Of a stretch of DNA of 64,000 bases, positions 1,377-50,635 are shown in pieces (the first letter of the stretch is position 1; every line of letters begins with the position of its first letter). The notes under the pieces were generated by a model that saw only the letters and a list, made by a program, of their open reading frames with translations, had not been told where the DNA came from and searched no databases. Where the stretch lies: contig NZ_CP019323.1 in the NCBI RefSeq assembly GCF_001971585.1, forward strand, positions 1,354,053-1,418,052, written 5' to 3'. A program made the translations under genes and the position numbers. Source of the DNA: Companilactobacillus allii (GTDB taxonomy: Bacteria > Bacillota > Bacilli > Lactobacillales > Lactobacillaceae).

Positions 1377-1516
1377 TTTTTCTACTCAAACTTGCAGTGA
1401 AAACGCGTGCCAAAACACAATTTTCTCCTTATAAGTCCAAAAAGCCGATATTTACTTACGTAAATGCCGGCTTTTTGAACTTATAAACGAAAACTGAACG
1501 TGTTTTGTCACGCTCT
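1377..1516 (-). repeat. Dispersed nested-stem repeat, copy R1
   Basis: On the minus strand this copy runs from AGAGCGTGACAAAACAC to GTTTGAGTAGAAAAA, downstream of the HAD phosphatase gene. The outer arms (GCGTGCCAAAACAC with GTGTTTTGTCACGC) pair with one mismatch. The inner arms pair as CAAAAAGCCG with CGGCTTTTTG around an ATTTAC-TTAC-GTAAAT apex. It lies between convergent genes and the inner hairpin has a T or A tract on each side, so it could stop transcription in both directions. It aligns along its full length with copy R6 at 50.5 kb. Confidence 0.85.
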
Positions 1517-1531
1517 GGCCATTTTTGTGTT

Positions 1532-2335
1532 CTATTTAATAAAATTCATAATTCCAAAACTAACACCATCTTGTTGATTGGTCTTGGTAATATGAGTAGC
1601 GTATTTTTTAACCTCTTTTGTGGCATTTTCCATGATGATAGATGTTCCAGTCATTTTTAGCATGGGAATATCGTTATGGCCATCGCCAAAGGCTGCCATT
1701 TCTGATTTTTCTAAGTGGTTAAGTTTTTGAATATATGCAATACCAGCTGATTTCTTAGCTTTGTCACTGGTTATTTCTAAGTAATTATTACCGGACTGTT
1801 GAATACTGACCCCGGTTAAGTGCAAGTCGTCTAATGCCTTTATTATAGTAGTCATTTCACTTATTGAATTGGCTATAAACATTATCTTATAGATGTCTTC
1901 ATCGACATTTTTGAAGAATTCGGGGTATTTGACTACCTCTGGTTCATGGAAGGTTAGACTTGTCTCTAGCTTGATTCCAGAATCTATTTTGTCGGTATAC
2001 CATTTCTCATCTGTGTATAAACTCAAACTAATATCTTCAAACTGCTGTCTCATTTGGAGTGTGATGTTCTCGACAACTCTCGAATCCAAAAAGTCCTCAG
2101 ATATCTTATCAATAGAATTTCCATGGCGCTTGTAAATCAAACCACCATTAAAGGCAATTTGGGTGTTGGTCAAACCTAGCACGTCAATCGTATCGAACAT
2201 TTCGATTGGACTTCTTGCCGATACTAGGGTAAATGGGATGTTACAAGACTTGATAGTTTGAATGTTCATATCACTTATAACGCCACGATCATTTAAAAGA
2301 GTTCCATCCATATCAGAAAAAATTTGTTTTATCAC
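1532..2335 (-). CDS. Cof-type HAD-superfamily sugar-phosphatase-like hydrolase
   Basis: This 267-residue HAD hydrolase of the Cof/YidA subfamily probably dephosphorylates sugar or nucleotide phosphates in the cytoplasm. Motif I is FSDMDGTLL, with the nucleophile and acid aspartates at residues 8 and 10. Motif II is the LVSAR segment. A Cof-type C2 cap spans about residues 85-190. Motif IV is FGDGHNDIPML. The gene lies 17 bases after a PTS IIA gene on the same strand, so the two probably form an operon. That would fit handling of phosphosugars, but no sugar can be inferred. Confidence 0.85.
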   Translation of the reverse strand: MIKQIFSDMDGTLLNDRGVISDMNIQTIKSCNIPFTLVSARSPIEMFDTIDVLGLTNTQIAFNGGLIYKRHGNSIDKISEDFLDSRVVENITLQMRQQFEDISLSLYTDEKWYTDKIDSGIKLETSLTFHEPEVVKYPEFFKNVDEDIYKIMFIANSISEMTTIIKALDDLHLTGVSIQQSGNNYLEITSDKAKKSAGIAYIQKLNHLEKSEMAAFGDGHNDIPMLKMTGTSIIMENATKEVKKYATHITKTNQQDGVSFGIMNFIK

Positions 2336-2352
2336 TATATAAATACTCCTAA

Positions 2353-2820
2353 TTAATTAGTTGATTTTTGAGCAATAGAATCTTCAACCAATTGAACCAA
2401 TGTATCGGGGTTATCAAGGTTATTTTGGAATTTATCGACAATATCCTGATTGGTTAGTTCTTCACGAAGATTCTTTACAATATAATGATAATCCTTTTCG
2501 TGACTATTTCTAGGCATAATTAAAGCGATTACAACATTTACTGGCTGATCATCACTGGAATTCCAATTAATATCATCATCAAAGGTCATTATGAATATGT
2601 TCGGTTCGTCAATATCTGAAGAATTAGCATGTGGAATGGCTACCTTACCTCCAAAGGCAGTTGAACCGGCGGCTTCACGTGCTAAAAATCCACTTTTGAT
2701 TTCTTGTTCATTGATTCCTAATTTGTCAGCAATGACTTGAGAAATTGTTGATAGAATTTGAATTTCATTAGCATTTGGTAAATAAATATTTGTAAATACA
2801 TTTTCATTTGTTAGTTTCAT
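2353..2820 (-). CDS. PTS system fructose/mannitol-type EIIA component
   Basis: This 155-residue protein is a stand-alone phosphotransferase IIA domain of the PTS_EIIA_2 (fructose/mannitol/Ntr) family. It takes phosphate from HPr on the histidine in VAIPHANSSD (His64). The FLAREAAGSTAFGG and IFIMTFDDDINW segments fit the family. No IIB or IIC gene is nearby, so it either works with membrane components encoded elsewhere or is regulatory. The HAD phosphatase follows on the same strand. Confidence 0.87.
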   Translation of the reverse strand: MKLTNENVFTNIYLPNANEIQILSTISQVIADKLGINEQEIKSGFLAREAAGSTAFGGKVAIPHANSSDIDEPNIFIMTFDDDINWNSSDDQPVNVVIALIMPRNSHEKDYHYIVKNLREELTNQDIVDKFQNNLDNPDTLVQLVEDSIAQKSTN

Positions 2821-2910
2821 AATAGTACGCTCCTAATCTGTTATTCTTGACTACAACTGGAGTGTAATTGGTAGAACGCGTTCCATGTCAAGGGTAAATA
2901 TTACTTTGTT

Positions 2911-2924
2911 AGTAAACGTTTTCT
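2911..2924. promoter_or_regulatory. Candidate catabolite-responsive element (cre)
   Basis: AGTAAACGTTTTCT matches the CcpA consensus TGWNANCGNTNWCA except at the two outermost positions. It lies in the divergent gap between the PTS IIA gene and histidinol phosphatase. CcpA control of the PTS IIA/HAD pair is the more natural reading. The call is a sequence match only. Confidence 0.45.
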
Positions 2925-2960
2925 GTGATTAAATTGGAGTAATAAATAAGGGGGCATTTT

Positions 2961-3797
2961 ATGTTAATGGATGGACATACGCATACTGAATTTTGCCAAC
3001 ATGGTAGTGGTGAAACAGCCGAAAGGATGGTTTTACGTGCTATTCAATTGGGGATGAAAAAGTATTGTATTACAGAACATGCACCGCTTCCTTCAGATTT
3101 CAAAACGGTATTTGGTGGCAATGTGGACGGTGTTGATACTGGTGCAATGGACTTGGTCGACCTTCCAGCTTATATGAAAGAGATGTCGCGTCTTCAAAAA
3201 AAATATTCTGATGAAATAGAGATCTCAATTGGATTTGAAGTCGATTATCTTGAAGGTTTCGAAGATTATACTAAGGACTTTTTAGACGAATACGGACCAC
3301 AGACACAAGAAAGTATTCTGTCAGTTCATTTTATGCAAGGAAAAGATCAAAAGCAGTGGTGTATTGATTATGATGTGGAAGATTACAAAGAAGGTTTTGA
3401 ACAATTTCTTGATGATCCACAACATGTATTCAGACAGTATTATCAAACTGTTAAGAAGTCTGTGGAGGCTGACCTTGGCGTGTATCGTCCGCAACGAATC
3501 GGACATATGAGTCTGATTAGAAAATTTCAGGATTATTTCAATCTTACCCAGGATTATGATGCCAAAACTATGGCGTTGGTTACTGAGATACTTAATGAAA
3601 TCAAACAACAAAACCGAGAATTAGACTTGAACTTGGCTGGGCTTTATAAGCCATTTTGTAATGATTATTATCCTGGTGCACAAATAACTAAACTCGCAAA
3701 GGAAATGAAGATACCTTTGATATATGGATCAGACGCTCACGATATATTATCAGTTGGACACGGACAACATTTAGTTGCATCTGCAAATTTGTCTTGA
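2961..3797 (+). CDS. hisK: Histidinol-phosphatase, PHP family
   Basis: This 278-residue PHP-domain phosphatase converts L-histidinol phosphate to L-histidinol, the penultimate phase of histidine synthesis. The first PHP motif is MDGHTHTEFCQHGSGE, followed by the metal-binding ITEHAP and GFEVDYLEG segments, and the C-terminal YGSDAHDILSVGHG motif. It replaces the HAD-type phosphatase half found in bifunctional HisB, consistent with the single-domain HisB downstream. It has its own ATG with a GGGGGC site and lies upstream of the T-box, so it is not controlled by that leader. Confidence 0.92.
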   Translation: MLMDGHTHTEFCQHGSGETAERMVLRAIQLGMKKYCITEHAPLPSDFKTVFGGNVDGVDTGAMDLVDLPAYMKEMSRLQKKYSDEIEISIGFEVDYLEGFEDYTKDFLDEYGPQTQESILSVHFMQGKDQKQWCIDYDVEDYKEGFEQFLDDPQHVFRQYYQTVKKSVEADLGVYRPQRIGHMSLIRKFQDYFNLTQDYDAKTMALVTEILNEIKQQNRELDLNLAGLYKPFCNDYYPGAQITKLAKEMKIPLIYGSDAHDILSVGHGQHLVASANLS

Positions 3798-3822
3798 CAG
3801 ATGACGTTAATGCTCCTATTAT
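3794..3822 (+). promoter_or_regulatory. Promoter for the his T-box transcript
   Basis: A perfect -35 box TTGACA (3794-3799) and the -10 box TATTAT (3817-3822) are separated by exactly 17 bases. The -35 overlaps the stop codon of histidinol phosphatase. Transcription would begin about 60 bases before T-box Stem I. Confidence 0.75.
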
Positions 3823-3884
3823 TAATTTTAAATTAAATGATTATTAAAAAAACTAATTTTATTTTAATAATAGTTGTGATTAGG

Positions 3885-4123
3885 AAAAGTAGTCGATAAC
3901 CGCTCTAACAGAGAGTCCTATATGATGAGACAGGATAGAAGTTATTGATGAACACACACCTATGAACTGTAGAACTGAACCAAGTAGGTCCTACCGAGTG
4001 GATTCGTTATCCAAGTTGACTAAGCCAACATGAGGTCTAATTCGTAAGGATTAGATAAAATGAGGTGGAACCGCGTGAAAACGTCCTCTTAGCAAATATT
4101 TTATTTGCTAAGGGGATTTTTTT
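3885..4123 (+). ncRNA. T-box leader of the his operon (His specifier likely)
   Basis: The leader has Stem I features, with GATGAA followed by a CAC triplet at 3953-3955 in the expected specifier position. The T-box sequence TGGAACCGCG follows at 4066-4075. A strong terminator pairs TTAGCAAATA with TATTTGCTAA around a four-base loop and ends in a T run (4083-4123). CAC would read tRNA-His, matching the ten biosynthetic genes downstream. Because the triplets overlap (AAC, CAC, ACA), the specifier is inferred partly from gene function. Uncharged tRNA should favour the antiterminator and let the operon be transcribed. Confidence 0.9.
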
Positions 4124-4158
4124 ATACAATTTTTTAATAAATCAAGGGGGCGTTTTAA

Positions 4159-5301: not shown

Positions 5302-5303
5302 AA

Positions 5304-7237: not shown

Positions 7238-7252
7238 TGAGGAGTAAAAACT

Positions 7253-10556: not shown

Positions 10557-10567
10557 GAGGTCAAACT

Positions 10568-11652: not shown

Positions 11653-11672
11653 ACTGTATAAGGAAGTCTTTT

Positions 11673-12634: not shown

Positions 12635-12637
12635 GCA

Positions 12638-13844: not shown

Positions 13845-13869
13845 TTTTTGGGGTACATATTAAGTAAAT

Positions 13870-16380: not shown

Positions 16381-16647
16381 ATGGAAAAGAAAGATTTTCA
16401 CATTATTGCAGAAACAGGAATCCACGCACGTCCAGCTACTATGTTAGTACAAGCTGCTAGCAAGTTTACTTCAGATATCAACATTGAATTCAATGGTAAA
16501 TCAGTAAACCTTAAATCAATCATGGGTGTTATGTCACTTGGTGTTGGCCAAGGTGCTGACGTTACAATTACTGCCGACGGTGATGACGCTGCTGATTCTA
16601 TCGCTGCTATTACAGATACAATGACAAAGGAAGGACTTGCTGAATAA
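16381..16647 (+). CDS. ptsH: Phosphocarrier protein HPr
   Basis: HPr (88 residues) relays phosphate from enzyme I to sugar-specific EIIA proteins, and as HPr-Ser-P is the CcpA corepressor. The catalytic histidine is His15 in GIHARPAT and the regulatory serine is Ser46 in [11 protein letters not shown]. Both are intact. The gene overlaps ptsI by one base (TAATGG) and has a GTGAGG ribosome site. The stand-alone EIIA at 2.4 kb is a possible partner within this window. Confidence 0.98.
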
Positions 16648-18371
16648 TGGTTAAAACTATCAAAGGGATTGCAGCTAGTGATGGAATTGCTACTGCAGAA
16701 GCATACCTTTTGGTTCAACCAGATCTGTCTTTCGATAAAAAAAGCATTTCTGACACTGAAGCCGAAATTAGCCGTTTAAAAGACGCAATCGCCACATCAG
16801 ATTCAGAACTTACAAAGATCAGAGATGTTGCTAAAGAGTCTTTAGGTGAAGATGAAGCTCAAGTCTTTGATGCTCATAAGATGATTTTGGCTGATCCAGA
16901 ATTTACTGGCGCAGTTGAACAAGAAGTTTCAGATAAATCAGTTAATGCTGAACAAGCACTTGATGATGTATCTAAGAACTTTATCGCAATTTTTGAAGGT
17001 ATGACTGATAATCCATATATGCAAGAACGTGCTGCCGATGTACGCGATGTTACAAAACGTGTAATGGCACATCTTCTTGGAGTTGAATTACCAAACCCTT
17101 CATTGATCGATCATGAAGTAATCATTGTTGCTCATGATTTAACACCTAGTGATACTGCTCAATTGAACAAAAAGTATGTTAAAGGATTTGTTACAGATAT
17201 CGGTGGACGTACTGCTCACTCAGCCATTATGGCTCGTTCATTGGAATTGCCTGCTGTTGTTGGTACTGACTCAATTACAGGAGACGTCAAAGAAGGCCAA
17301 ACTGTTATCCTTGATGGATTAAACGGTGCAGCTATCGTAGACCCAACTGATGACGATATCAAGAAATATGCTAAGTTAGCTAAAGACTTTGCTGATCAAA
17401 AAGCAGAGTGGGAGAAGTTGAAGAATGAAGCCACAGTTACTGCTGATGGCAAGCATTTTGATATTGCTGCTAATATTGGTACTCCTGATGACCTTCAAGG
17501 TGTTATTGATAATGGTGCCGAAGGTGTCGGACTTTACCGTACAGAATTCTTGTATATGCAATCTGAGGAACTTCCTACAGAAGATGACCAATTCAATGCA
17601 TATAAAAAAGTTCTTGAAGGTATGAATGGCAAGGCTGTTGTTGTTCGTACAATGGATATCGGTGGTGACAAGCACTTGTCATATCTACCACTTCCAGAAG
17701 AAATGAACCCATTCTTGGGTTACCGTGCTATCCGTATCAGTTTGGATAGACAAGAAATCTTCAGAACACAACTTAGAGCATTGCTTCGTGCATCTGCATT
17801 CGGACAATTACGTATCATGTTCCCAATGATCGGTACATTGCAAGAATTCAGAGACGCTAAGAAGATTTTTGAAGAAGAGAAGTCTAAGTTAGTTGCAAAA
17901 GGTGTAGAGGTTTCTGACAACATTCAATTAGGAATGATGATGGAAGTTCCAGCCGCAGCTATTTTGGCTGATCAATTTGCTAAGGAAGTTGACTTCTTTA
18001 GTATTGGTACAAATGACTTGATTCAATACACAATGGCTGCTGATCGTGGTAATGAACATGTTTCTTACCTATATCAACCATATAACCCTTCAATCTTGAG
18101 ACTAGTTAAGCACGTTATTGACTCAGCTCATAAAGAAGGCAAGTGGGCAGGTATGTGTGGAGAAGCTGCCGGTGATAACATCATGGTCCCATTACTATTA
18201 GGTATGGGTCTAGATGAATACTCAATGAGTGCTACATCAGTACTTCGTGTAAGAAGTTTGATGAAGAAGTTGAGTACAGCTGATCTTAAAGAATTAGCTG
18301 AAAAAGCAGTTAGCGAATCAGTTACTAATGAAGATAACGAAAAACTTGTTGAATCATATATCAATAAGTAA
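16647..18371 (+). CDS. ptsI: Phosphoenolpyruvate-protein phosphotransferase, enzyme I
   Basis: Enzyme I takes phosphate from PEP and passes it to HPr. The 574-residue protein shows the N-terminal HPr-binding helices, the phosphohistidine motif [15 protein letters not shown] (His191), and the TIM-barrel PEP site with [39 protein letters not shown] and MCGEAAGD. It forms an operon with ptsH. Copy R2 of the dispersed repeat begins seven bases after its stop codon and probably terminates the operon. Confidence 0.98.
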
Positions 18372-18377: not shown

Positions 18378-18518
18378 AGAGTGTGAAAATGCACGGGTAA
18401 TTTCCGAGCATTAACGCAAATAGTTTCGGCATTCACGAAAGTGAATACCGAAACTATTTTTGTTAAGCGGAAGAAATTGTGTGTTTTCACGCGTTTTCGC
18501 TATAAAATTGAGTAGAGA
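18378..18518 (+). repeat. Dispersed nested-stem repeat, copy R2
   Basis: The outer arms GTGAAAATGCAC and GTGTGTTTTCAC pair fully if two G-T pairs are allowed. The inner arms AATAGTTTCGG and CCGAAACTATT pair around ATTCAC-GAAA-GTGAAT. The copy starts after the ptsI stop, and its tail (TTGAGTAGAGAA) reaches the end of the converging membrane-protein gene. Its inner hairpin is identical to that of copy R5, 26 kb away, although the outer arms differ. Confidence 0.85.
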
Positions 18519-18523
18519 ATAAA

Positions 18524-20114: not shown

Positions 20115-20139
20115 AATTACATTAAAAATAAATGAATTT

Positions 20140-20407
20140 AAAAGCAAGTAAGTGGAGAAGTAATTGAGCTGTACGAATCACAGGAAGCCATGTTAATTGA
20201 GAAATGGTATTTGTCGTTTGATGAAAGTAGCCACGGAGCTTACAATGCGAGCGAAAGCAAGTGTTGCATGGGTGCACCCATTATTGTGCTAGCGTATTAT
20301 TTGTACGTGAAAAGATGTTGTCTGTGAGGGCATCATAAAGCAAGGGTGGTACCGCGCATAAGCGTCCTTTGAAAATCTTAATTGATTTTCAAAGGGCGCT
20401 TTTTTTC
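20140..20407 (+). ncRNA. T-box leader upstream of brnQ (Val specifier proposed)
   Basis: The T-box sequence GGGTGGTACCGCG lies at 20344-20356. A terminator pairs AGCG-CCTTTGAAAATC with GATTTTCAAAGG-CGCT and ends in a T run (20361-20407). Aligning Stem I with the Met leader at 42.3 kb (TTGATTGAAG then ATG) places GTA at 20227-20229 in the specifier position (TTTGATGAAA then GTA). GTA is a valine codon, which fits a branched-chain amino acid carrier, and the TGGT bulge fits an A73 tRNA. The specifier is less certain than the T-box itself. Confidence 0.88.
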
Positions 20408-22260: not shown

Positions 22261-24504
22261 ATGATGAACTTATTGAAAAAAATCACATTAGATGATGAAT
22301 TTATAGATGAAGTAAAGAAGAGTGTTAAACCACACTGGGGAGAACTCGGATGGGTTACTTATAAGCGTACTTATGCACGTTTTATTGATGAATTAGGACG
22401 TACTGAAAACTGGTCAGAAACTGTTAAGCGTGTTGTTGAGGGTAATATTAATCTTGACCCTCGTTTGAGAGATGATTCATTGACTGAAGAGCAATATCAA
22501 AGTCTAGTTGATGAAGCTCATAATCTATACAAGTTGGTTTATGGATTAGCAGCTACTCCTTCAGGTAGAAACCTTTGGATCTCTGGTACAAAGTATCAAG
22601 ACCGTAATGGGGATGCTTTGAACAACTGTTGGTTCATTGCCATCAGGCCACAAAAGTATGGTGATAGTCATATTCTTCCTAGTTATTTGGATGAAGATCA
22701 AGTCGCTGTATCAATGCCTTTCTCATTCATGTTTGATCAATTAATGAAAGGTGGCGGTGTTGGTTTCTCTGTTGTTCCTGACAATATGAAACAAATGCCT
22801 GTCGTTGATCAAAGTGTTGACTTAACTGTTCTAATCAGCAAGGATAGCGCATCTTATGATGATTCTATTGAAGCTGGGGCAATTGATCGTGAAGACTGGT
22901 TAAAGGATCATGACGCTAGTAAAGCACGTTTTTACAAGCTTCCAGATACTCGTGAAGGTTGGGTAATTGGTAATGCTGAAATGATCGATGCTCACTTTGC
23001 ATCAACTAATCCTGAAAAGATCAATGATGTTGTCTTGGATATTACTGACATCAGACCAAATGGTGCAAAGATCAAGGGATTTGGTGGTACTGCATCTGGT
23101 CCTGTTCCATTAATTGAGATGTTCTTTGATATCAATGAAGTTTTAAATAATGCTTTAGGTAAGAAGTTAACATCAGTTGATTGTACTGATATGGGTAATT
23201 TGATCGGTAAAACAGTCGTTGCCGGAAACGTTCGTCGTTCAGCTGAGCTGGCACTTGGTGGAGCAACTGATGATGACTTTATTACAATGAAACAAGATCA
23301 AAAGAAACTTTATCATCACCGTTGGGCTTCTAACAACAGTGTTGCTGTTGATTCTAAGTTTACAAAGTACGAACCAATCGCTGATTCAATTACACATAAT
23401 GGTGAACCAGGGATCGTTAATCTTGAATTATCACGTAACTACGGTCGTATTGCTGATGGATATCAACCAGGAATTGATGATGCCGTTGAAGGTACTAATC
23501 CATGTGGGGAAATCTCATTGAGCAATGGTGAACCATGTAATTTGTTTGAAGTATTCCCAGTTATTGCAGAACAACAAGGCTGGAATCTAGAAGAAGCATT
23601 CAGCTTGGCTGCAAGATATACTAAACGTGTTACATTCAGTAATTACGATTGGGAAGTATCTCGTAATGCTATTGCCAAGAATCGTCGTATTGGTGTTTCA
23701 ATGTCTGGTATTCAAGACTGGATCTTGAACACATTTGGTAATCGTGTTGTTACAGGATTCACTGACACTAAAGATGAGTCTGGCGAAGTTGTTAAAAAAC
23801 CAGTTTATGATAAGAAGATAGTTAAAGAGTTCGATGATTTGTATCATTCAGTTGTTAAGGCTGACGTTGATTATTCACACGAGTTGAATTGCAATGTTTC
23901 AATCAAACATACAACAGTTAAACCATCTGGTACTGTTGCTAAGTTGGCTGGAGTTTCTGAAGGGATGCACTTCCATTATGCTGGATATTTGATTCAAAGA
24001 ATCAGATTCCAAGATAGTGACCCATTGCTTCCAGCTTTGAAGGCATGTGGATATAAAATTGAACCAGATGTTTATACAAAGCATACAATGTGTGTAGAAT
24101 TCCCAGTTAAAGCCGTTAATGCAGATAATCCTAACTTTGCGTCTGCCGGTAATGTATCAATTGCTGAACAGTTCGCTACACAAGCATTCCTACAAACATA
24201 TTGGTCTGATAATGCGGTAAGTTGTACCGTTACTTTCCAACCTAGTGAAGCTAAGGAAATCGCACCATTAATGTATCAATATAGACATATTACAAAATCA
24301 ACTTCACTACTACCTTATAGTGGTGGAGAGTTCAAACAAGCACCTAAGGAACCAATTGATAAGGATGTTTATTCTAAGCGTGTTTCAATGATCAGTGGAA
24401 ATGTTGCAACTGTTTTTGCTGATATGAATGATAACCACGATAAGAAGGATATCGAATTAGTTGATCAATCCGACTGTGAAAGTGGAGCTTGTCCAATTAG
24501 ATAA
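22261..24504 (+). CDS. nrdJ: Adenosylcobalamin-dependent class II ribonucleoside-triphosphate reductase
   Basis: This monomeric RTPR reduces ribonucleoside triphosphates to deoxy forms with coenzyme B12. The 747-residue protein closely follows the Lactobacillus leichmannii enzyme (VKPHWGELGWVTYKRTYARF at the N terminus). The active-site NPCGEISLSNGEPCNLFE holds the radical cysteine and one of the disulfide pair. The C-terminal CESGACPIR supplies the shuttle cysteines (739 and 744). The enzyme is oxygen-independent but needs cobalamin from the medium or made by the cell. NrdR boxes and a strong terminator flank it. Confidence 0.97.
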   Translation: MMNLLKKITLDDEFIDEVKKSVKPHWGELGWVTYKRTYARFIDELGRTENWSETVKRVVEGNINLDPRLRDDSLTEEQYQSLVDEAHNLYKLVYGLAATPSGRNLWISGTKYQDRNGDALNNCWFIAIRPQKYGDSHILPSYLDEDQVAVSMPFSFMFDQLMKGGGVGFSVVPDNMKQMPVVDQSVDLTVLISKDSASYDDSIEAGAIDREDWLKDHDASKARFYKLPDTREGWVIGNAEMIDAHFASTNPEKINDVVLDITDIRPNGAKIKGFGGTASGPVPLIEMFFDINEVLNNALGKKLTSVDCTDMGNLIGKTVVAGNVRRSAELALGGATDDDFITMKQDQKKLYHHRWASNNSVAVDSKFTKYEPIADSITHNGEPGIVNLELSRNYGRIADGYQPGIDDAVEGTNPCGEISLSNGEPCNLFEVFPVIAEQQGWNLEEAFSLAARYTKRVTFSNYDWEVSRNAIAKNRRIGVSMSGIQDWILNTFGNRVVTGFTDTKDESGEVVKKPVYDKKIVKEFDDLYHSVVKADVDYSHELNCNVSIKHTTVKPSGTVAKLAGVSEGMHFHYAGYLIQRIRFQDSDPLLPALKACGYKIEPDVYTKHTMCVEFPVKAVNADNPNFASAGNVSIAEQFATQAFLQTYWSDNAVSCTVTFQPSEAKEIAPLMYQYRHITKSTSLLPYSGGEFKQAPKEPIDKDVYSKRVSMISGNVATVFADMNDNHDKKDIELVDQSDCESGACPIR

Positions 24505-24508
24505 TTTA

Positions 24509-24552
24509 AATAAGCCAGTGTTTACGAAAGTAAATGCTGGCTTATTTTTTTT
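24509..24552 (+). terminator. Terminator of nrdJ
   Basis: AATAAGCCAG pairs with CTGGCTTATT around TGTTTAC-GAAA-GTAAATG, followed by eight T residues. Its apex matches the apex of the dispersed repeats' inner hairpin. Confidence 0.88.
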
Positions 24553-28996: not shown

Positions 28997-29416
28997 ATGA
29001 ATGAAATTGAAAATATGACAAAAGCTGAATGGCAGGTGATGAGAATCATCTGGACACTTGGTGAATCAACAAGTAAGCAAGTTATAGATGTACTAGAAAA
29101 GAAAACTGATTGGAAACAAGCTACAATCAAAACTTTGATTGTTAGATTGCACGAAAAAGAGTTTTTGAAGGCAGATGTATCAAGCAGACCATATGTATAT
29201 CATCCCGAAATTTCAGAAGATGATGCGATAGATCAAACCGTTAATAACTTATTTGATAACCTCTGTTGTATGAAAAAAGGCGAAGCAATAGGGGATTTGA
29301 TCGGTAGCTCTGATATTTCTAAAAACGAGATTCAAGGATTGATTGAGAAATTGGAGAACAAAAAAAGAAATGCGCCTGAGCAAGTAAAGTGCGATTGTTT
29401 GGAGGAGTCATTATGA
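28997..29416 (+). CDS. copY: Copper-responsive repressor CopY
   Basis: CopY is a BlaI/MecI-family winged-helix repressor that leaves the cop boxes when zinc is replaced by copper(I). The 139-residue protein has the MTKAEWQVMRIIWTLGESTS helix-turn-helix region. The classic C-terminal CxCxxxxCxC metal site is reduced to one CxC (KCDCLEESL), with another CC pair earlier (NLCCMKK). Metal sensing may therefore use a different set of ligands. The gene overlaps copB by four bases. Confidence 0.88.
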   Translation: MNEIENMTKAEWQVMRIIWTLGESTSKQVIDVLEKKTDWKQATIKTLIVRLHEKEFLKADVSSRPYVYHPEISEDDAIDQTVNNLFDNLCCMKKGEAIGDLIGSSDISKNEIQGLIEKLENKKRNAPEQVKCDCLEESL

Positions 29417-31494
29417 TGAACAATATGAAAAACGAAAAAATGCAAAATATGAAAAATGATAAAACGCAAAATATGAGTAGTATGGATAGTGAAAGTATGG
29501 ATATGGACAAAATGATGAATAGCGGCCATATGATGATGAATCATGGTGGCGTTATGATGGATATGGGAGATTTACGTAAGAAGTTTTGGGTTTCATTAAT
29601 TCTTGCAATTCCAGTCTTCATTTTCTCACCATTCATGGGGTTCAATATAGTACCGCAATTCCCGGGATCTACTTGGATCATAATGGTATTGAGTTCAGTT
29701 CTATTTTTCTATGGTGGTAAACCATTCATAACTGGTGCGAAAGGTGAGTTAAAAGCAAAACAACCAGCTATGATGACCTTGATCACCATGGGTATCAGTG
29801 TTGCATATTTCTATAGTTTATATGCTTTTGTAATGACTGATATTTTACATAGTGGAAAAAATATTACTAATTTCTTCTGGGAATTAGCTTCATTGATTGT
29901 AATTATGTTACTTGGACATTGGATCGAAATGAAATCTACGATGAGTGCTGGTAACGCACTTCAAAAGATTGCTTCACTAGTTCCTAATCAAGTACATATG
30001 GTTAATGGTTCAGAAACAACCGATAATGATATTTCGATGGTCAAATCAAATGATGTAGTAGAAGTTCGTGCCGGAGAATCAATTCCACTTGATGGTGAAA
30101 TCATTAGTGGTGAAAGTTATATTAATGAATCACTTATTACTGGTGAATCAAAGGCAGTTAAAAAAGGCCTTGGTAAAAATGTTGTTGGTGGTTCAATCAA
30201 TGGTGAAGGTACAATTAGAGTTAAAGTTACAAAGACTTCAAATGAAGGTTACCTATCACAAATCAGTAAGTTAGTTTCAGATGCACAAAATAATAAGTCT
30301 AAGACACAAATGTTGGCTGATAAAGTATCTGGTTGGTTATTCTATGCCGCAGTTACAGCCGGTTTGTTAGCATTTGTATATTGGTTAGTATTTGGTAATG
30401 TGAACCTTGCGTTATTACGTTTAGTTACAGTTCTAGTTATCGCATGTCCACACGCATTAGGATTGGCAGTTCCACTAGTAATGTCACGTAGTACCTCGAT
30501 TGCTGCAACAAATGGTTTGATCATTCGTGATAACCAAGCAATGGAGAATAGTCGTAAGATCGATTATGTTGCAATGGATAAAACAGGTACATTGACAGAA
30601 GGTAAATTCACAGTTAATGGTTTGAAAGTTGTATCAGATGCCAACGAAAAAGATGTCTTATCAGTGATTGCCGGAATCGAAAGTGGTTCTAGTCATCCAA
30701 TCGCTAATAGTGTTGTTGCATACGCTAAAGAACAAAAAATCGAAGCTACAAAACTTGAGAATATTCAAGCTATTAAAGGATACGGTATGAGTGCCACAAA
30801 GGATGCTCATAAGTATTTGTTAGTAAATATGAAGTATCTACAAGAGAACAAGTTATCATTTGATAGAACAGCTACAAAAGAGTATTTGGACAAAGGTAAT
30901 ACTGTTAGTTATTTGGTCATTGATGGCAAAGTTGTCGGATTCATTGCTTTGGGTGATACAGTCAAAGCCAATTCTGTACAATTCATCAAAGATTTAAAAG
31001 CTAGAAATATTACACCTATCATGTTGACTGGTGATAACAAAGAAGCCGCAAAAGCCTTCGCAAATCAACTTGGTATTGATGAATTCAAAGCTGAACTTCT
31101 TCCAGAAGACAAGCATACAGTTATCAAGAATCTTGAATTGCAAGGACATCACGTTATGATGGTCGGTGATGGTATCAACGATGCACCAAGTTTAGCAAGT
31201 GCCACAATAGGTGTTGCCATTGGTGCTGGTACCGATGTAGCAATTGATTCAGCGGATGTTGTTTTGTATAATTCAGATCCTAGCGATATCACCAAATTCT
31301 TGAAGTTATCTGCAAAGACATATCGCAAGACAGTCGAGAACCTATGGTGGGGTGCTGGATATAATATCTTAGCCATTCCATTAGCAGCCGGAGTATTAGC
31401 CGGAATCGGAATCATATTAAGCCCAGCAGTCGGTGCAATAATCATGTCATTGTCTACAGTTATCGTTTCATTGAATGCCATGAGCTTACACTAG
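29413..31494 (+). CDS. copB: P1B-type copper-transporting ATPase, CopB-like
   Basis: This 693-residue P-type ATPase exports copper. Its N-terminal 45 residues are rich in methionine with a few histidines, replacing the usual CxxC metal domain. The transmembrane metal motif is ACPHALGLAVPL, where CPH marks the CopB (P1B-3) group. The phosphorylation motif MDKTGTLTEG, the TGES loop and GDGINDAPSLA are intact. I start at the ATG at 29413 after GGAGGAG, overlapping the copY stop. No copZ chaperone is present here. The TAG stop is also part of repeat R3. Confidence 0.93.
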   Translation: MMNNMKNEKMQNMKNDKTQNMSSMDSESMDMDKMMNSGHMMMNHGGVMMDMGDLRKKFWVSLILAIPVFIFSPFMGFNIVPQFPGSTWIIMVLSSVLFFYGGKPFITGAKGELKAKQPAMMTLITMGISVAYFYSLYAFVMTDILHSGKNITNFFWELASLIVIMLLGHWIEMKSTMSAGNALQKIASLVPNQVHMVNGSETTDNDISMVKSNDVVEVRAGESIPLDGEIISGESYINESLITGESKAVKKGLGKNVVGGSINGEGTIRVKVTKTSNEGYLSQISKLVSDAQNNKSKTQMLADKVSGWLFYAAVTAGLLAFVYWLVFGNVNLALLRLVTVLVIACPHALGLAVPLVMSRSTSIAATNGLIIRDNQAMENSRKIDYVAMDKTGTLTEGKFTVNGLKVVSDANEKDVLSVIAGIESGSSHPIANSVVAYAKEQKIEATKLENIQAIKGYGMSATKDAHKYLLVNMKYLQENKLSFDRTATKEYLDKGNTVSYLVIDGKVVGFIALGDTVKANSVQFIKDLKARNITPIMLTGDNKEAAKAFANQLGIDEFKAELLPEDKHTVIKNLELQGHHVMMVGDGINDAPSLASATIGVAIGAGTDVAIDSADVVLYNSDPSDITKFLKLSAKTYRKTVENLWWGAGYNILAIPLAAGVLAGIGIILSPAVGAIIMSLSTVIVSLNAMSLH

Positions 31495-31636
31495 AGCGAG
31501 CCATAACACGGGTAATTTCCGAGCATTAACACAAAAAATAGGTAGTATTCACGAATGTGAATGCTACCTATTTTTAGCGTTAAGCGGAAGAAATTGTGTT
31601 ATGTCTCGCGTTTCAGCAAGTTAGAAGGAAAAAGAA
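31493..31636 (+). repeat. Dispersed nested-stem repeat, copy R3
   Basis: The copy starts AGAGCGAGCC inside the copB stop codon (TAG-AGCG). The outer arms GCGAGCCATAACAC and GTGTTATGTCTCGC pair with one mismatch. The inner arms AAATAGGTAG and CTACCTATTT pair around ATTCAC-GAAT-GTGAAT. The inner stem differs in sequence from R2 and R5 yet keeps full pairing. It lies between convergent copB and the histidine kinase gene. Confidence 0.85.
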
Positions 31637-31676: not shown

Positions 31677-31722
31677 AAAGAAATTGTGTTATAGCTCGCG
31701 TTTCAGCAAGCTGATAGAAAAA
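31677..31722 (+). repeat. Half copy of the repeat (R3'), 3' arm only
   Basis: Forty bases after R3, its 3' outer arm and tail recur: AAATTGTGTTATAGCTCGCG then TTTCAGCAAG. This second arm could also pair with the R3 5' arm, again with one mismatch, giving two alternative outer stems. Confidence 0.7.
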
Positions 31723-31728
31723 ACAAAA

Positions 31729-41334: not shown

Positions 41335-41439
41335 TCATTACATATAGGTCACTAATTTTGTTTGAACAAACTAAGGTTTATTTACTTTACAAACATTTTG
41401 AGACTGTTAAAATGTAGATACAGAATTGAGGTGACTATG

Positions 41440-42117
41440 ATGGAAATGGATCGACTTAATGATAATACAATCAGAGTCATTCTTAGTACGCAGGATTTGC
41501 AAGATCGCGGAGTTACTGTTTTGGATTTGTTGGGAAATAAAAAACAGATTGAGACATTCTTCTATAGTATTTTGGATGAAGTTGATAAAGATCATGTTTT
41601 CACGAATAATGAACCAGTGACTTTTCAAATTATGCCTAACAAACAAGGACTAGAGTTACTTATTAGCAAGAATGATGAGGCTGATGATGCTGGTTCATTG
41701 CCATTAAATACGTTGCAAGATTCAAACGATACTGAAGATAATTCATTTGAATTTGATAATGCAAAGTTAGGTAACGATGAGTACGATGAGGATACTGCAC
41801 CATACTTGAATGACCCTGACACACCTACGAAGGCAATTATTGTTGAATTTAAGAACTTTGAGGATTACGTTCAACTTGCTGATTTATTGCACTTAGAGAG
41901 TGGAGTTTCTAATCTTTGGGAATATCAAGGTATATACTACTTACAATTGATTCTGTTTACAGATGAGATGCATGATATGACCTACAACGATGTTTTAGCT
42001 ATGTTAAGTGAATATAGCTTCAAGACAAAGGTTACTGCTGCTGTATTGTCTGAATATGGTAAGAAGGTTATGAGTAAGACAGCTTTGGAATTAACTAGAT
42101 ATTACTTTAAAAACTAA
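41440..42117 (+). CDS. mecA: Adaptor protein MecA
   Basis: MecA delivers substrates such as competence and stress regulators to ClpC-ClpP. The 225-residue protein has the N-terminal substrate domain (MEMDRLNDNTIRVILSTQDL), an acidic linker, and the C-terminal ClpC-binding domain (FKNFEDYVQLADLL). I start at the second of two adjacent ATG codons, six bases after GAGGTG. An upstream frame extension of 26 residues is not conserved in type. Repeat R4 begins three bases after its stop. Confidence 0.92.
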   Translation: MEMDRLNDNTIRVILSTQDLQDRGVTVLDLLGNKKQIETFFYSILDEVDKDHVFTNNEPVTFQIMPNKQGLELLISKNDEADDAGSLPLNTLQDSNDTEDNSFEFDNAKLGNDEYDEDTAPYLNDPDTPTKAIIVEFKNFEDYVQLADLLHLESGVSNLWEYQGIYYLQLILFTDEMHDMTYNDVLAMLSEYSFKTKVTAAVLSEYGKKVMSKTALELTRYYFKN

Positions 42118-42120
42118 ATG

Positions 42121-42200
42121 AGAGTGTGGCGGTACACGTTTTCCTTTCGTGTGTAAGCCAAGAAAATCGGTATTTACGTAAGTAAATATCGCTTTTTTTG
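42121..42200 (+). repeat. Dispersed repeat, truncated copy R4
   Basis: The copy starts AGAGTGTGGCGGTACACG, three bases after the mecA stop codon. It carries an inner hairpin with ATTTAC-GTAA-GTAAAT and a T run, but the 3' outer arm and tail are missing. The Met T-box promoter starts 19 bases later. Confidence 0.7.
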
Positions 42201-42218
42201 TTTTATATAGAAAAAAAT

Positions 42219-42247
42219 TTGACAAGTAATAAATAAAAGAGTAAATT
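42219..42247 (+). promoter_or_regulatory. Promoter for the Met T-box transcript
   Basis: TTGACA (42219-42224) and TAAATT (42242-42247) are separated by 17 bases. Confidence 0.65.
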
Positions 42248-42254
42248 AATCACA

Positions 42255-42546
42255 ATCAAATGATTAAAGATTATTTAATCTTATTAGACGTTGAAGAGAA
42301 GAGTAGATTAACGAGTAGTTTGAATAGTGACCGTTAGATGGTGAAAAGACGGAGCAAAAGTTGATTGAAGATGAGCTTGGAGTCTTACCTAGGTGGAAGC
42401 CAAAGGTACGCAAGGATGCGATATCATCCCGGACATGTTAGTGTCGTTGAGGTATTTTGGGTAATCAAAATACGAATTAGGGTGGTACCACGGTAATCGT
42501 CCCTACATTACAGAGTAAGTCTGTGTATGTAGGGACGATTTTTTTG
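42255..42546 (+). ncRNA. T-box leader upstream of metQ-luxS (Met specifier)
   Basis: Stem I carries TTGATTGAAG followed by ATG at 42371-42373 in the specifier position, a Met codon. The T-box GGTGGTACCACGG lies at 42481-42493. A terminator pairs ATCGTCCCTACAT with ATGTAGGGACGAT and ends in a T run (42497-42546). Low charged tRNA-Met should turn on the methionine-binding protein gene and probably luxS behind it. Confidence 0.92.
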
Positions 42547-42578
42547 TATAAGAATTATAATCTTGAGGAGGCGTATAT

Positions 42579-42626: not shown

Positions 42627-42655
42627 AAAGCTTTTAATTTGAGGGGGATATAAAA

Positions 42656-43507: not shown

Positions 43508-43528
43508 AATTTTAGGAGATATTAAATT

Positions 43529-44002: not shown

Positions 44003-44038
44003 TTTGATTGGATAATTATTTTAAAAGGAGCTATTACA

Positions 44039-44815
44039 ATGGGATTGTTTGAAGAATTAGATAGTAAAGTGGTATTAGTTACTGGGGGAAATCAAGGAAT
44101 CGGGGAATCCGTTGTAGATACCTTTTTGAATGAAAACTCCATTGTTATATGTGCTGATTTGGCAATTCATGAAAGTAAGTTAGAGAAGAAGTCAGACCAG
44201 TTATACAAGATCCACTTGGATGTCAGTGATGAAGACAGCGTCAAAAATCTTACAGCTCAACTTATCGCCAATAATTTGATTCCTAATGTAGCCATCAATG
44301 TGGCAGGGATTTCAACAATGAATTATTTGATTGAGAGTAAGACAAGTGACTTTGACAAAACAATCGCAGTCAATACACGTGGAACATACTTGATAACAAA
44401 GTATATCGTCAAAGAAATGGTCAAGCTGAATCGACCAGGTAAAGTTGTTCTAATAGCTTCCCAAGCAGGTAAAAATGGTTACCGTGCAATGTCTGCCTAT
44501 GTGGCATCAAAACATGCCGTATTAGGATTGACAAAGACCTTAGCAATCGAAGTTGCTCATAATCAGATCAACGTTAACGCCGTTTGTCCCGGTATAGTTG
44601 AAACTCCTATGAAACATCGTGAAAGAAATGACGGTGCAGTTATTCGAGGATTGACATCTGATGACATAGAAAAAGAAGATAATAGCCAAGTTCCATTAGG
44701 AAGAACAGCAAAACCACAAGACGTCGCTAACGTAGTGTTGTTCCTATCTAGCCATTTGTCAGATTATATGACTGGGCAGGGAGTTAATGTTACTGGCGGA
44801 ATGACAATGAATTAG
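44039..44815 (+). CDS. Short-chain dehydrogenase/reductase
   Basis: This 258-residue classical SDR has the cofactor motif VTGGNQGIGESV, the NVAGI strand, an intact active site (Ser in LIASQAG, YVASKHA with Tyr and Lys), and PGIVETPM. Similarity to acetoin/diacetyl and sorbitol-6-phosphate type reductases is general only. It follows luxS by 36 bases with an AAAAGGAG site. Repeat R5 starts directly after its stop. Confidence 0.85.
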   Translation: MGLFEELDSKVVLVTGGNQGIGESVVDTFLNENSIVICADLAIHESKLEKKSDQLYKIHLDVSDEDSVKNLTAQLIANNLIPNVAINVAGISTMNYLIESKTSDFDKTIAVNTRGTYLITKYIVKEMVKLNRPGKVVLIASQAGKNGYRAMSAYVASKHAVLGLTKTLAIEVAHNQINVNAVCPGIVETPMKHRERNDGAVIRGLTSDDIEKEDNSQVPLGRTAKPQDVANVVLFLSSHLSDYMTGQGVNVTGGMTMN

Positions 44816-44960
44816 AGAGCGTAACAAAACGCGCCCAATTTCCGAGTACTAACGCAAATAGTTTCGGCATTCACGAAAGTGAATACCGAAACTATTTTTG
44901 TTAGACGGAAGAAATTGCGTTTTGTTACGCGTTTAAGACCGCAAGTTTGAGAAGCAAAAA
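44816..44960 (+). repeat. Dispersed nested-stem repeat, copy R5
   Basis: The copy starts AGAGCG at the base after the stop TAG. The outer arms GTAACAAAACGC and GCGTTTTGTTAC are perfect complements. The inner hairpin (AATAGTTTCGG with CCGAAACTATT) is the same as in R2. The tail GCAAGTTTGAGAAG matches R1 and R6. Confidence 0.88.
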
Positions 44961-44991
44961 AGGCAAGCAGGAGCACTAAAAAAGCATAAAT

Positions 44992-45030
44992 GTTAGACGG
45001 AAGAAATTGCGATTAGTTACGCGTTTAAAA
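44992..45030 (+). repeat. Half copy of the repeat (R5'), 3' arm only
   Basis: GTTAGACGGAAGAAATTGCG followed by ATTAGTTACGCGTTTAAAA repeats the 3' arm of R5 about 80 bases downstream with a few changes. R3 shows the same kind of duplicated 3' half. Confidence 0.7.
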
Positions 45031-45076
45031 TCAACCATTCTCAAAATACGTAATTTGTCATTAGAGGTGAATAAAT

Positions 45077-45943: not shown

Positions 45944-45944
45944 A

Positions 45945-46595: not shown

Positions 46596-46755
46596 TTTTG
46601 ATTTCCTCCATCTCTCTAGCATAGTTATTCTAACAGCAATGATATAAAAGGTAAAATTATAAACTCTGGAAGTTAATATTCTTGTGTTTTGCACATTTTA
46701 GTGAAACTTAATTGGAATTAAGATATCCTTAGTAGGGAAGTAATTGGAGGCAATC

Positions 46756-47412: not shown

Positions 47413-48221
47413 AATTTTGGGTGAATAATAACAATAAAGAGCAGTCAGTAGCTGCCTCAGATAAGTTAAGACAAGCATTGGTAGATAGTGGTATGGAACA
47501 AAGTCGTCGTAATCCAGCACTAGTGATTAGTGTCGGTGGGGATGGTACTTTGTTAAGCACATTTCACGCCTATGCAGCGCATTTGGATACGGTGAAATTT
47601 CTAGCGCTTCATACTGGACACTTAGGTTTTTATTCTGATTGGACTGATCAAGAGATCGATGAATTAGTTGATTGTATTGTCAAATGTCAGGAAAATATCC
47701 CGTCAACCAGCTATCCTCTTTTGGATATTAAAGTTGATCGCGAAGAAGGTGAAAGTTTCCATGGAATTGCGATCAATGAAACTGTCGTTAGACGATTGTC
47801 TGCTTTAACAATGAAGACAAGAGTTAATTTGGATGGTGAATTCTTTGAGAACTTTCGTGGAGATGGACTTTGTTTTTCCACACCAACTGGATCAACTGCC
47901 TATTCAAAGGCGATTGGTGGTGCTTTGATACATCCCAAGATTAGTGTGTATCAAATGGTTGAAATTGCTTCTATAAATAATCGAGTATATAGAACTATTT
48001 CATCACCGATTATTATTCCACATAATCAACAAGTCGATCTTTATCCACATCGTGCTGATGATTATGTTATTACTTGTGATGGAATATCGACTAAATTGAA
48101 GAATGTTAAGAAAATATCAATCAAATTGAATTCTCAAAGAGCACAGTTTGCCCAATACCGTCATCGTCATTTCTGGACTAGAGTCGAGACTGCCTTCCTA
48201 GGTCAAGATGGCGAACAATAG
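47409..48221 (+). CDS. nadK: NAD kinase
   Basis: NadK phosphorylates NAD to NADP. The 270-residue protein has the diacylglycerol-kinase-fold motif SVGGDGTLLSTFHA, the NE dipeptide in AINETVVRR, and the conserved GDGLCFSTPTGSTAYSKAIGG segment. It overlaps relQ by four bases and rluD by 14, in a conserved operon. Confidence 0.95.
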   Translation: MKFWVNNNNKEQSVAASDKLRQALVDSGMEQSRRNPALVISVGGDGTLLSTFHAYAAHLDTVKFLALHTGHLGFYSDWTDQEIDELVDCIVKCQENIPSTSYPLLDIKVDREEGESFHGIAINETVVRRLSALTMKTRVNLDGEFFENFRGDGLCFSTPTGSTAYSKAIGGALIHPKISVYQMVEIASINNRVYRTISSPIIIPHNQQVDLYPHRADDYVITCDGISTKLKNVKKISIKLNSQRAQFAQYRHRHFWTRVETAFLGQDGEQ

Positions 48222-49110
48222 ATTTTTAAAGTTCACAATAAATAGTACGGATAAAAAAATAATCCGTAAATTTCTAAGCCATCAGAATTTCTCTTCAAGT
48301 CAGCTTCGTAATCTGAAAAATAAAGGTGGACAGATCTTTGTAAACCACAAGAAACGTCATTTGGACTTTAGAATGAAAACAGGTGACAGTTTATTAGTTG
48401 TCTTAAGTGAAGAGATACCAGCAGATATCATTGAACCAATGCAGGGCAAATTGGACGTGATTTATGAAGATGATTATTTATTAGTTGTGAATAAACCGCC
48501 AGGGTTGGCTAGTTTACCTACCAGAGCAAGAACAAGTAGAACGATGTCTAATATCGTTAAGTATTATTTAGAAGAGAATCATGAGAATAGTACCATCCAC
48601 TTGGTGACAAGACTGGATCGTGATACTTCTGGTTTAATGGTTTTTGCGAAGAACTCGTTTACGCATTCATTGTTGGACCAAATACTTCATTCACAAGATT
48701 TCCAAAAATATTATTTAGCACTTATTTATGGGCAAATGACACCTAGTTTGGGCTTGATCGATCTACCGATAGGAATCGATCCGGATGCCTTTTATTTACG
48801 AAATATTGATCAAAATGGTAAGGCGTCTAAAACGGAATATAAAACAATTGCAAATTATAAAACGGCTAGTTTATTAAAATTGAAGTTATTAACAGGTAGA
48901 ACACACCAGATACGGGTGCATCTATCAGCTATGGGACATCCAATTATTGGGGATGAGATGTATAGTCATAGGAAAGACTCAAGAATAAGTCGTCAAGCAC
49001 TACATTGTTATGAATTAAAGATCGTCCATCCAGTAACGCATGAGTTACTGAATTTAAAGGCACCAATTCCTCAAGATATGGTATTGTTAAGGAGTGCCTT
49101 AGAGGGGTGA
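48208..49110 (+). CDS. rluD: RluA/RluD-family pseudouridine synthase
   Basis: This 300-residue enzyme modifies uridines in rRNA or tRNA. It has an S4-like N-terminal RNA-binding domain (SSSQLRNLKNKGGQIFVN), the catalytic aspartate in LVTRLDRDTSGLMVFAKN and the late motif GRTHQIRVHLSAMGHPIIGD. The target uridines cannot be inferred. It overlaps nadK and lies five bases before mgtE. Confidence 0.92.
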   Translation: MANNRFLKFTINSTDKKIIRKFLSHQNFSSSQLRNLKNKGGQIFVNHKKRHLDFRMKTGDSLLVVLSEEIPADIIEPMQGKLDVIYEDDYLLVVNKPPGLASLPTRARTSRTMSNIVKYYLEENHENSTIHLVTRLDRDTSGLMVFAKNSFTHSLLDQILHSQDFQKYYLALIYGQMTPSLGLIDLPIGIDPDAFYLRNIDQNGKASKTEYKTIANYKTASLLKLKLLTGRTHQIRVHLSAMGHPIIGDEMYSHRKDSRISRQALHCYELKIVHPVTHELLNLKAPIPQDMVLLRSALEG

Positions 49111-49114
49111 TGAA

Positions 49115-50488
49115 ATGGATGAAAATGAGAAAAGACTGCAAGAAAAATTTGCACAGTTAAAGAAATATTTGGATAAAGGTGATAAGAAAAGATTCAGAAA
49201 AACCTATCTGGATATGCATTTTTATGACCAGAGTACCTTTTATCTTACCCTAGATAAACCAGAAAGATTAAGTCTGTATTCACTGCTTGAGCCCGATGAA
49301 TTGGGTGATATGTTTGACACGATTGAAGACGACTTACCAGAGATCCCTGAGTATTTAAAAGAGATGGATCTGGAGTTTGCGGCTGAAATGTTGAACGATA
49401 TGTATGATGATAATGCGGCCGATGTGTTGGAACATTTGGAGAAGTCCGACGTTGATAGATTCTTAGGCCAAATGCCTAGAGCTGACGCCAACAATCTACG
49501 TGGATTATTGCACTATGATACAGAAACAGCCGGTGGTATTATGACCACTGACTATGTTCAGTTTCACGAACAAGAGACTGCCGCTAATGCTATAAAAGAT
49601 TTACGTAGTTTTGCGGAAACAGCTGAGACTATCTATTATCTTTATGTTTTAGATAATCATGATGATCTAGTTGGTGTAATGTCCTTACGTGACTTGATTC
49701 TATTGGATCCAGGTGACAAGTTAGGTGAGAAGATGAATAGCGATGTTATCACTGTTAACGTTGATGCTGAACAGGCAGAAGTTGCTCAAATTTTTAGAGA
49801 TTACGAGTTCTTGGCTGTTCCAGTTGTTGACCATGCCAATCAGATGGTTGGTATTATAACGGTTGATGATGTTATTGAAGTTATTGATGATGAATCATTA
49901 CAAGATTATTCAGGACTTGCCGGTGTTAGTGTCGATGAGACAACACAAGATAGTCCATTAAGGGCAGCCTCCAAGCGTTTGCCTTGGTTGATAACTTTGT
50001 TGTTATTAAGTATGATCACTGCAACTTTAATTAATCATTATGAGAATCTTTTGGCAGAGGCCAGTATTTTAGCAGTATTTATTTCAACCATCACTGGTAC
50101 TGCAGGTAATGCTGGTACACAGAGTTTGGCTGTTGCTGTTAGAAGATTGGCAGTCGAAGAGATTGATCGTCATGAATTTTTCAAGTTAATAGTTAAAGAA
50201 TTATTAACAGGATTTATCACCGGTGTCGTTACAGGTATATCCGTAACGGTGTTGGTAGGAGTGTGGAAGCATAATTTCATATTAGGAATGGTTATTGGAC
50301 TGGCCATGTGTGCCGCTATAACGGTGGCTAATCTGGCTGGAAGCCTTATTCCAATGCTAATGTCTAGTTTTGGATTCGATCCCGCCGTAGCGAGTGGTCC
50401 ATTTATCTCTACACTTAGTGATTTAACTAGTGTGTTGATTTACTTCAGTATTGCTGGAATGTTCTTGCAATCATTTACTAGTATGTGA
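49115..50488 (+). CDS. mgtE: Magnesium transporter MgtE
   Basis: MgtE is a gated magnesium channel. The 457-residue protein has the N-terminal superhelical domain (about residues 35-135, AAEMLNDMYDDNAADVLEHL), two CBS domains (about 140-260) with MTTDYVQFHEQETA and VPVVDHANQMVGIITVDDV, and five membrane helices with GTAGNAGTQSLAVAVRRLA lining the pore. It closes the relQ-nadK-rluD-mgtE operon. Repeat R6 lies just beyond its stop, in the opposite orientation. Confidence 0.95.
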   Translation: MDENEKRLQEKFAQLKKYLDKGDKKRFRKTYLDMHFYDQSTFYLTLDKPERLSLYSLLEPDELGDMFDTIEDDLPEIPEYLKEMDLEFAAEMLNDMYDDNAADVLEHLEKSDVDRFLGQMPRADANNLRGLLHYDTETAGGIMTTDYVQFHEQETAANAIKDLRSFAETAETIYYLYVLDNHDDLVGVMSLRDLILLDPGDKLGEKMNSDVITVNVDAEQAEVAQIFRDYEFLAVPVVDHANQMVGIITVDDVIEVIDDESLQDYSGLAGVSVDETTQDSPLRAASKRLPWLITLLLLSMITATLINHYENLLAEASILAVFISTITGTAGNAGTQSLAVAVRRLAVEEIDRHEFFKLIVKELLTGFITGVVTGISVTVLVGVWKHNFILGMVIGLAMCAAITVANLAGSLIPMLMSSFGFDPAVASGPFISTLSDLTSVLIYFSIAGMFLQSFTSM

Positions 50489-50498
50489 AGGTTAACAC

Positions 50499-50635
50499 TT
50501 TTTCTACTCAAATTTGCAGTGCAAACGCGTGCCAGAACACAATTTTTTCAATATAACAAAAGGCCAGTATTTACATGCGTAAATACTGGTCTTTTGTGCT
50601 TATAAACGAAAACTGAACGTGCTCTGTCACGCTCT
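50499..50635 (-). repeat. Dispersed nested-stem repeat, copy R6
   Basis: On the minus strand the copy begins AGAGCGTGACAGAGCACG and ends GCAAATTTGAGTAGAAAAA. Its first two bases are the AG of the cutC TAG stop codon. The outer arms pair with two mismatches; the inner arms CCAGTATTTAC and GTAAATACTGG pair perfectly. It aligns along its whole length with R1. It lies between convergent mgtE and cutC. Confidence 0.85.

Follow-up and report, generated by a model that had tools for sequence, protein, structure and literature searches.

We describe here a dispersed, transposon-like repeat of Lactobacillaceae that, on balance, appears to be retained at gene 3' ends as an RNA element, a reading to which we assign a rough probability of 0.55. 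According to this reading, the transcript would fold into one long rod that starts near the stop codon, next to the terminating ribosome; the rod would stand in for an intrinsic terminator and/or shield the mRNA 3' end from exonucleases, and copies would be spread by an enzyme acting in trans and persist at sites where they double as the end of a gene. The repeat concerns more than 100 gene ends in the Companilactobacillus allii genome alone. The family is a case in which repeats seem to have taken possession of gene ends, and one in which RNA-level selection on a mobile repeat could be measured inside one genome.

Copies in the window

The window, by which we mean the whole 64,000-nt stretch of C. 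allii DNA that was analysed, contains six places that an earlier, sequence-only reading had grouped as one repeat family, and the covariance model R1, which was built from 32 copies, matched at all six. Five of these are full copies, with R1 scores of 104–161 bits. Copy c1 (1375-1516, minus strand) starts 15 nt past the stop of the ORF at 1532-2335 (minus) and is flanked by AAATGGC and GCCATTT; copy c2 (18378-18522, plus) starts 6 nt past the stop of the ORF at 16647-18371; copy c3 (31493-31636, plus) completes, with its own first bases AG, the TAG stop of the ORF at 29389-31494; copy c5 (44816-44961, plus) lies immediately 3' of the TAG stop of the ORF at 44039-44815; and copy c6 (50497-50635, minus) again supplies the AG of a TAG stop, that of the ORF at 50634-51281 (minus). 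The remaining place, c4 (42121-42255, plus), which lies 3 nt past the stop of the ORF at 41362-42117, had been described as truncated and is indeed a degraded copy (40.5 bits), in which the 5' half and apical hairpin are retained and the outer 3' arm is gone. The earlier description of outer arms that differ between copies, each with its own matching 3' arm, was borne out, and folding of the copies compared with shuffled sequences gave z values of -6.3 to -10.0 for the five full copies and -4.9 for c4.

Two features were absent from the earlier description. All six copies start at, or at most 15 nt past, the stop codon of an ORF in the same orientation, and extra 3' halves are located behind c3 (31678-31726, plus) and c5 (44991-45028, plus), with distal arms that could pair with the 5' arm of the respective copy at 13 of 14 and 12 of 14 positions. 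A weak R1 match at 24503-24552 (33.8 bits, model positions 36-87 only), at the end of an nrdJ-like ORF (22261-24504), is probably a plain hairpin. The window also holds three T-box leaders (3867-4091, 20138-20372 and 42282-42507), the third of which scored 84.2 of 93 bits, under the gathering score, and sits behind the degraded copy c4; a 23S-methyl RNA motif at 54591-54697 overlaps the start of the ORF at 54657-55241.

Size and distribution of the family

The repeat family is far larger than the window. Queried at the DNA level with a single copy, the 2.5-Mb C. allii genome yielded 60 matches, and R1 gave 147 matches at E≤1 and 139 at E<1e-6 (150 candidates scored), these 139 places including some overlapping neighbouring tandem copies. 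The covariance-model search for more copies that had been proposed for this genome and its relatives was also productive outside C. allii: 33 of 36 Companilactobacillus genomes (C. allii included) were matched at E≤0.001, the other 32 of them with 1 to 83 matches each (88 candidates scored per genome), and 80 of 201 Lactobacillaceae genomes, spanning 18 of 40 genera, were matched at E≤1e-6 in a search that had stricter filters than the genus search and scored at most 15 candidates per genome. G026, one of the three genus genomes without an R1 match, gave two matches with a later, wider model, R2. Over the order, R2 at a cutoff of E≤1e-6 found matches in 78 of the 395 genomes searched, and 31 of those are Lactobacillaceae. 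In the other 47, from other families, the matches are few and weaker (best 3.8e-13); they could be distant relatives or simply long hairpins, and are not claimed as members.

Named members outside the genus were found on two Latilactobacillus curvatus plasmid records. In the plasmid search, matches occurred in C. allii and L. curvatus records only, and five further queries gave no match; a phage search with one copy as query was likewise negative. A partial match (L300) lies on the C. allii plasmid p1_WK39, a 3.6-kb molecule with only two annotated features.

Secondary structure and covariation

The fold was assessed on two alignments. Alignment A4 contains 128 rows from the C. allii genome (E≤1e-14; 100 own-genome sources), leaving out L154-L159 and some overlapping loci and including one row (L018:1502-1645:+) that is an antisense reading of another copy; A6 contains 45 diverse rows, 8 from C. 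allii and 37 from other genomes. (A further alignment, A5, holds four antisense rows.) The element is ~140 nt in length, or ~170 nt in what is seemingly its youngest subfamily, and is predicted to form a rod of ~115–130 nt. From the 5' side, the model consists of a variable 14-bp outer helix, a 5' bulge, a 6-bp helix, an internal loop, another 6-bp helix, which carries a bulged A, and an apical hairpin (17 bp, variable), with GUUU behind the rod. The internal loop is a conserved 3x4 asymmetric one, with YGA opposite a GGAA-like strand, and the near-invariant positions are the 5' AGAG, G18, A23, GAG 30-32, CGGA 104-107 and the GUUU. A kink-turn was considered for the internal loop, and the kink-turn consensus gave no support for it.

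We observed that 95.8% of cells pair in A4, with double-sided changes in 39 of 43 pairs, values that were reached by none of 500 shuffles, and that versions slid out of register pair at 39–56%; these shuffle and slid controls ignore relatedness among copies. For A6, the stored structure gave 95.8% pairing and double-sided changes in 36 of 43 pairs, and a refined helix, selected and tested on one and the same alignment, gave 96.9% and 38 of 43; again 0 of 500 shuffles reached either result. When all A6 column pairs were ranked by a G-test with average-product correction, 32 of the top 40 were pairs of the structure, and 11 of the 38 scored structure pairs stood above every non-structure pair. 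The strong outsiders in this test, 25-112, 27-110 and 28-109, contradict the helix 2 register given by RNAalifold and by the covariance model. That register was dropped, and the covarying pairs instead indicate an AGCUUC/GAAGCU-like helix 2 that leaves the internal loop. The structure thus looks to be under selection, with pairing maintained. This agrees with the sequence-only reading, which had taken the covariation as the mark of a selected structure: pairing lies beyond all shuffles and all slid controls, in C. allii and across genera, and both further copies (139 genomic places) and covarying pairs that are largely structural, the two things whose absence would have spoken against that reading, were found.

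A structure of this kind could also be a cis-acting regulatory RNA of the 3'-UTR, bound by a protein or working as a switch: a protein would read the internal loop and, where a second 3' half is present, the 5' half could pair with either 3' partner. Consistent with this, the internal loop, bulged A and GUUU are conserved over ten genera while the helices vary, and extra 3' halves are common: by pattern, a 3'-half remnant is present 25-150 nt behind 46 of the 128 A4 rows, as compared with 100 of 2997 random stretches, and the distal arm equals the copy's own arm within one mismatch in 26 of 128 rows (control ~1%). The distance to the second 3' half ranges from 53 to 216 nt, and a 5' half upstream was seen in 2 of 128 rows. 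We nevertheless regard a regulatory RNA as unlikely. In other genomes the distal arm was within one mismatch in only 3 of 45 rows, a set that includes the antisense row L248, and eroded tandem copies, which are the simplest cause of the second 3' halves, could account for the second arm (L222).

Strand that folds

Both arms are on one strand, so that intermediates of the G-U type can be tolerated when it is the sense strand that folds, and those of the A-C type when it is the opposite strand. The ratio of G-U to A-C was 82:11 in A6, with G-U in excess in 23 pair columns as compared with 2; 67:8 in the 37 other-genome rows of A6 (21 columns as compared with 3); and 167:73 in A4 without helix 2 (26 columns as compared with 4). 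Because G-U exceeds A-C, and because GNRA apical loops close 79 of the 128 copies, the sense strand is favoured, that is, RNA of the upstream gene's transcript. A C-to-T strand mutation bias of transcription could add to the G-U excess.

The G-U excess alone cannot separate RNA from sense single-stranded DNA, and the fold might serve in the latter form as substrate of an HUH- or recombinase-type mobiliser, as in REP or attC elements, without any role as RNA. An imperfect hairpin, conserved asymmetric bulges, a single orientation to genes and patchy dispersal would all suit such a substrate. On the other hand, the stop-codon position and the GNRA loops suit RNA better, and two candidate enzymes do not follow the repeat. 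The Y1 transposase domain (18 of 36 genus genomes) and the reverse transcriptase domain (12 of 36) were both rejected as resident mobilisers since their presence does not track copy number; both are missing from genomes G032 (76 scored matches) and G034 (83 scored matches). We therefore find a role confined to single-stranded DNA rather improbable. Integron attC sites carry a stop codon inside the site; the likeness to them was dropped because the copies are dispersed and do not form cassette arrays.

Template switching during replication can yield well-matched arms of arbitrary sequence together with duplicated 3' halves. Since both are present here, the arms might have been matched by such palindrome correction, with no selection on structure. 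We consider this distinctly improbable: palindrome correction would tend to erase the asymmetric loop and bulges, which persist across genera, and would also tend to erase the excess of G-U over A-C.

Mobility and insertion sites

Patchy occurrence at orthologous gene ends, nesting of copies and the near identity of two of them are best read as signs of a mobile repeat. The gene before c5 has its closest relatives in named Companilactobacillus genomes (up to 89% identity), and among 20 named loci of this gene end, 18 of them from Companilactobacillus, we saw by eye an element with different arms in C. nantensis, C. nodensis and C. insicii, a partial element in C. nuruki, an apparent remnant in C. 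jidongensis, and no element in the remaining loci. For the gene preceding c6, the comparison covered 10 relatives of 30 loci, 19 not being located by marker strings; 9 of the 10 share the end position of the protein, which in the tenth stops a few residues earlier, and the 9 with the shared end have a TAA or TAG and no sense element. At another C. allii copy (L112), four relatives show in place of the element a short hairpin that overlaps the stop. At c5 and L112, inspection by eye against relatives too distant for a firm reading revealed no target-site duplication.

Nested copies include L127, which sits inside a reversed, older copy, at its apex, and L006 and L141, each behind an older 5' half. 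L126 (C1:804123) and L127 (C1:2167057) are near-identical, ~170 nt in length, and end in TGTCACAACCCC, which is partly inverse to the 5' end and may represent a terminal repeat in a young subfamily. Some copies, as judged by eye, start with AGAGCGTGACA and finish with TGTCACAAACTC(T), which may be partial terminal inverted repeats. Insertion into palindrome centres is clear in three cases (c1, L126 and L127) and was rejected as a general rule, since flanking inverted repeats of at least 7 nt were seen 12 times in 128 rows as compared with 16.5 expected; an enrichment of such repeats would be predicted had terminator palindromes been the insertion targets. A search for an autonomous version gave 53 hits to the tail pattern, and no ORF-bearing form was present at the five places inspected (L296, L297, L298, L115 and L091), which look like eroded or apex-deleted copies. 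In four of these (L296, L298, L091 and L115) the apical hairpin or the 5' half has apparently been deleted, as is expected for unstable long palindromes.

Position relative to stop codons

In 112 of the 128 A4 rows, the stop of a sense ORF lies within -30 to +40 nt of the first base of the element. The mode is +2 (33 rows), where a T and the element's own AG make a TAG stop; ORFs of at least 60 codons were considered and, of two candidates, the one nearer +2 was taken, so that the distribution leans towards this peak. Stops also occur at +9, +23 and +37, most of those rows using stops inside the element, and the 16 rows without a near stop comprise tandem or nested copies, some without an ORF, and the antisense row mentioned above. 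TAG accounts for 39 of 84 stops at elements and for 55 of 226 elsewhere. Among 40 other-genome copies, chosen from the best-scoring matches of the genus and family searches and derived from 30 genomes (19 of them in nine other genera), 32 have a stop within -34 to +30, one of these (L244) resting on a 69-codon ORF. Independent annotations agree with these positions: the trmB stop of L. curvatus overlaps the match by 2 nt, and a C. allii transporter gene ends 8 nt ahead of a match.

The outer helix mostly starts 1–14 nt past the stop codon. For the rod the median is 5 nt (96 rows with a stop at -40 to +3), as compared with 14 nt for plain terminator-like hairpins of C. allii (Mann-Whitney p 6e-4). 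Since 15 of 45 of the plain hairpins also start within 5 nt of the stop, part of the closeness of the element reflects how gene ends are built in this genome. The next gene is convergent for 77 of 128 elements, as compared with 80 of 214 other gene ends that have a next gene.

A more radical reading of these positions is that a mobile RNA element targets stop codons, inserting in sense orientation in or behind the stop, which its own first bases rebuild, such that the helix meets the terminating ribosome. If this were true, the insertion step would read mRNA or a stopped ribosome, for example by stop-codon cutting in the A site followed by copying, and to our knowledge no bacterial repeat is familiar for insertion of that sort. 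We think it a long shot. Were the anchoring a targeting rule and not a by-product, how the element finds the ends of reading frames would become a testable question.

Proposed role at gene ends

The element occupies the place of a terminator, yet its U tract appears weak. In 11 of 128 rows the element is followed at 10–190 nt by a terminator-like hairpin, a share similar to that of random stretches (64 of 600), so that these C. allii rows show no enrichment of canonical terminators downstream. Behind the copies of other genomes such a hairpin was observed in 9 of 44 cases (the other-genome set above without L248). Under the same rules, 45 of 166 gene ends that lack an element carry one within 60 nt; the detector misses many terminators, and the search windows of 10–190 nt and 60 nt are unequal. 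Of the 128 copies, 53 have at least 4 T among the 6 nt that follow the rod, and 49 have TTTT at the inner hairpin. This weakness of the U tract makes termination uncertain. Inspection by eye showed a plain terminator behind the element or its remnant in C. nodensis, C. insicii and C. jidongensis. From these sequences we infer a 3'-end role for the repeat that would consist of termination and/or exonuclease protection.

That these are ordinary intrinsic terminators evolved in place, with no mobile repeat, is hardly credible despite the plain hairpins that also lie near stops (15 of 45 within 5 nt), for the shared core sequence, with homology of ~145 nt over 139 places, already goes a long way to contradict this explanation, which faces nested copies, element-free sites in four relatives and a weak U tract as well.

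Relation to known elements

The sequence-only reading had recognised no named family in the repeat, and Rfam release 15 likewise gave no match at the gathering score for the window copies or for 20 other-genome loci; the sub-threshold hits on copies were mostly microRNA hairpins. In the open-licence literature, as judged by titles and the openings of abstracts, no description of this lactobacillar repeat family was found.

REP and REPIN elements are many, short, palindromic and extragenic, and are accompanied by RAYT (Y1) transposases. The lactobacillar repeat shares the first four properties and differs in its ~115–130-nt rod, in its sense placement at stop codons and in that Y1 is missing from copy-rich genomes. 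Like an intrinsic terminator, it is a gene-end hairpin with no other terminator behind it above background; unlike one, it is much longer and has a conserved core sequence and a U tract that appears weak. MITEs are short, non-coding, dispersed and folded (PMC10969869), as is the present repeat; for the latter, the two sites inspected by eye against distant relatives showed no target-site duplication, no partner transposase was found, and the possible terminal repeats, identified by eye, are only partial. In the portion of that review available to us the string 'lactobacill' is absent, and in the available portion of another paper (PMC2267715) Lactobacillus is mentioned once, as L. johnsonii in a table of counts.

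Of the kinds described so far, the closest we found, in a paper available to us in part, are the SPRITE, BOX and RUP repeats of Streptococcus pneumoniae, which are small and interspersed, have stable predicted folds, are in excess between convergent genes and insert into each other (PMC3049150). SPRITE copies are located near CDS 3' ends, and their co-option as terminators has been proposed (PMC3049150). The available text of that report contains no stop-codon overlap by a repeat and no cross-genus covariation. The lactobacillar repeat resembles SPRITE both in its closeness to CDS 3' ends and in its excess between convergent genes. It differs in anatomy: SPRITE consists of an 18-bp duplex with a long U-rich tract behind it (PMC3049150), whereas the lactobacillar repeat is a nested rod behind which only GUUU is near-invariant.
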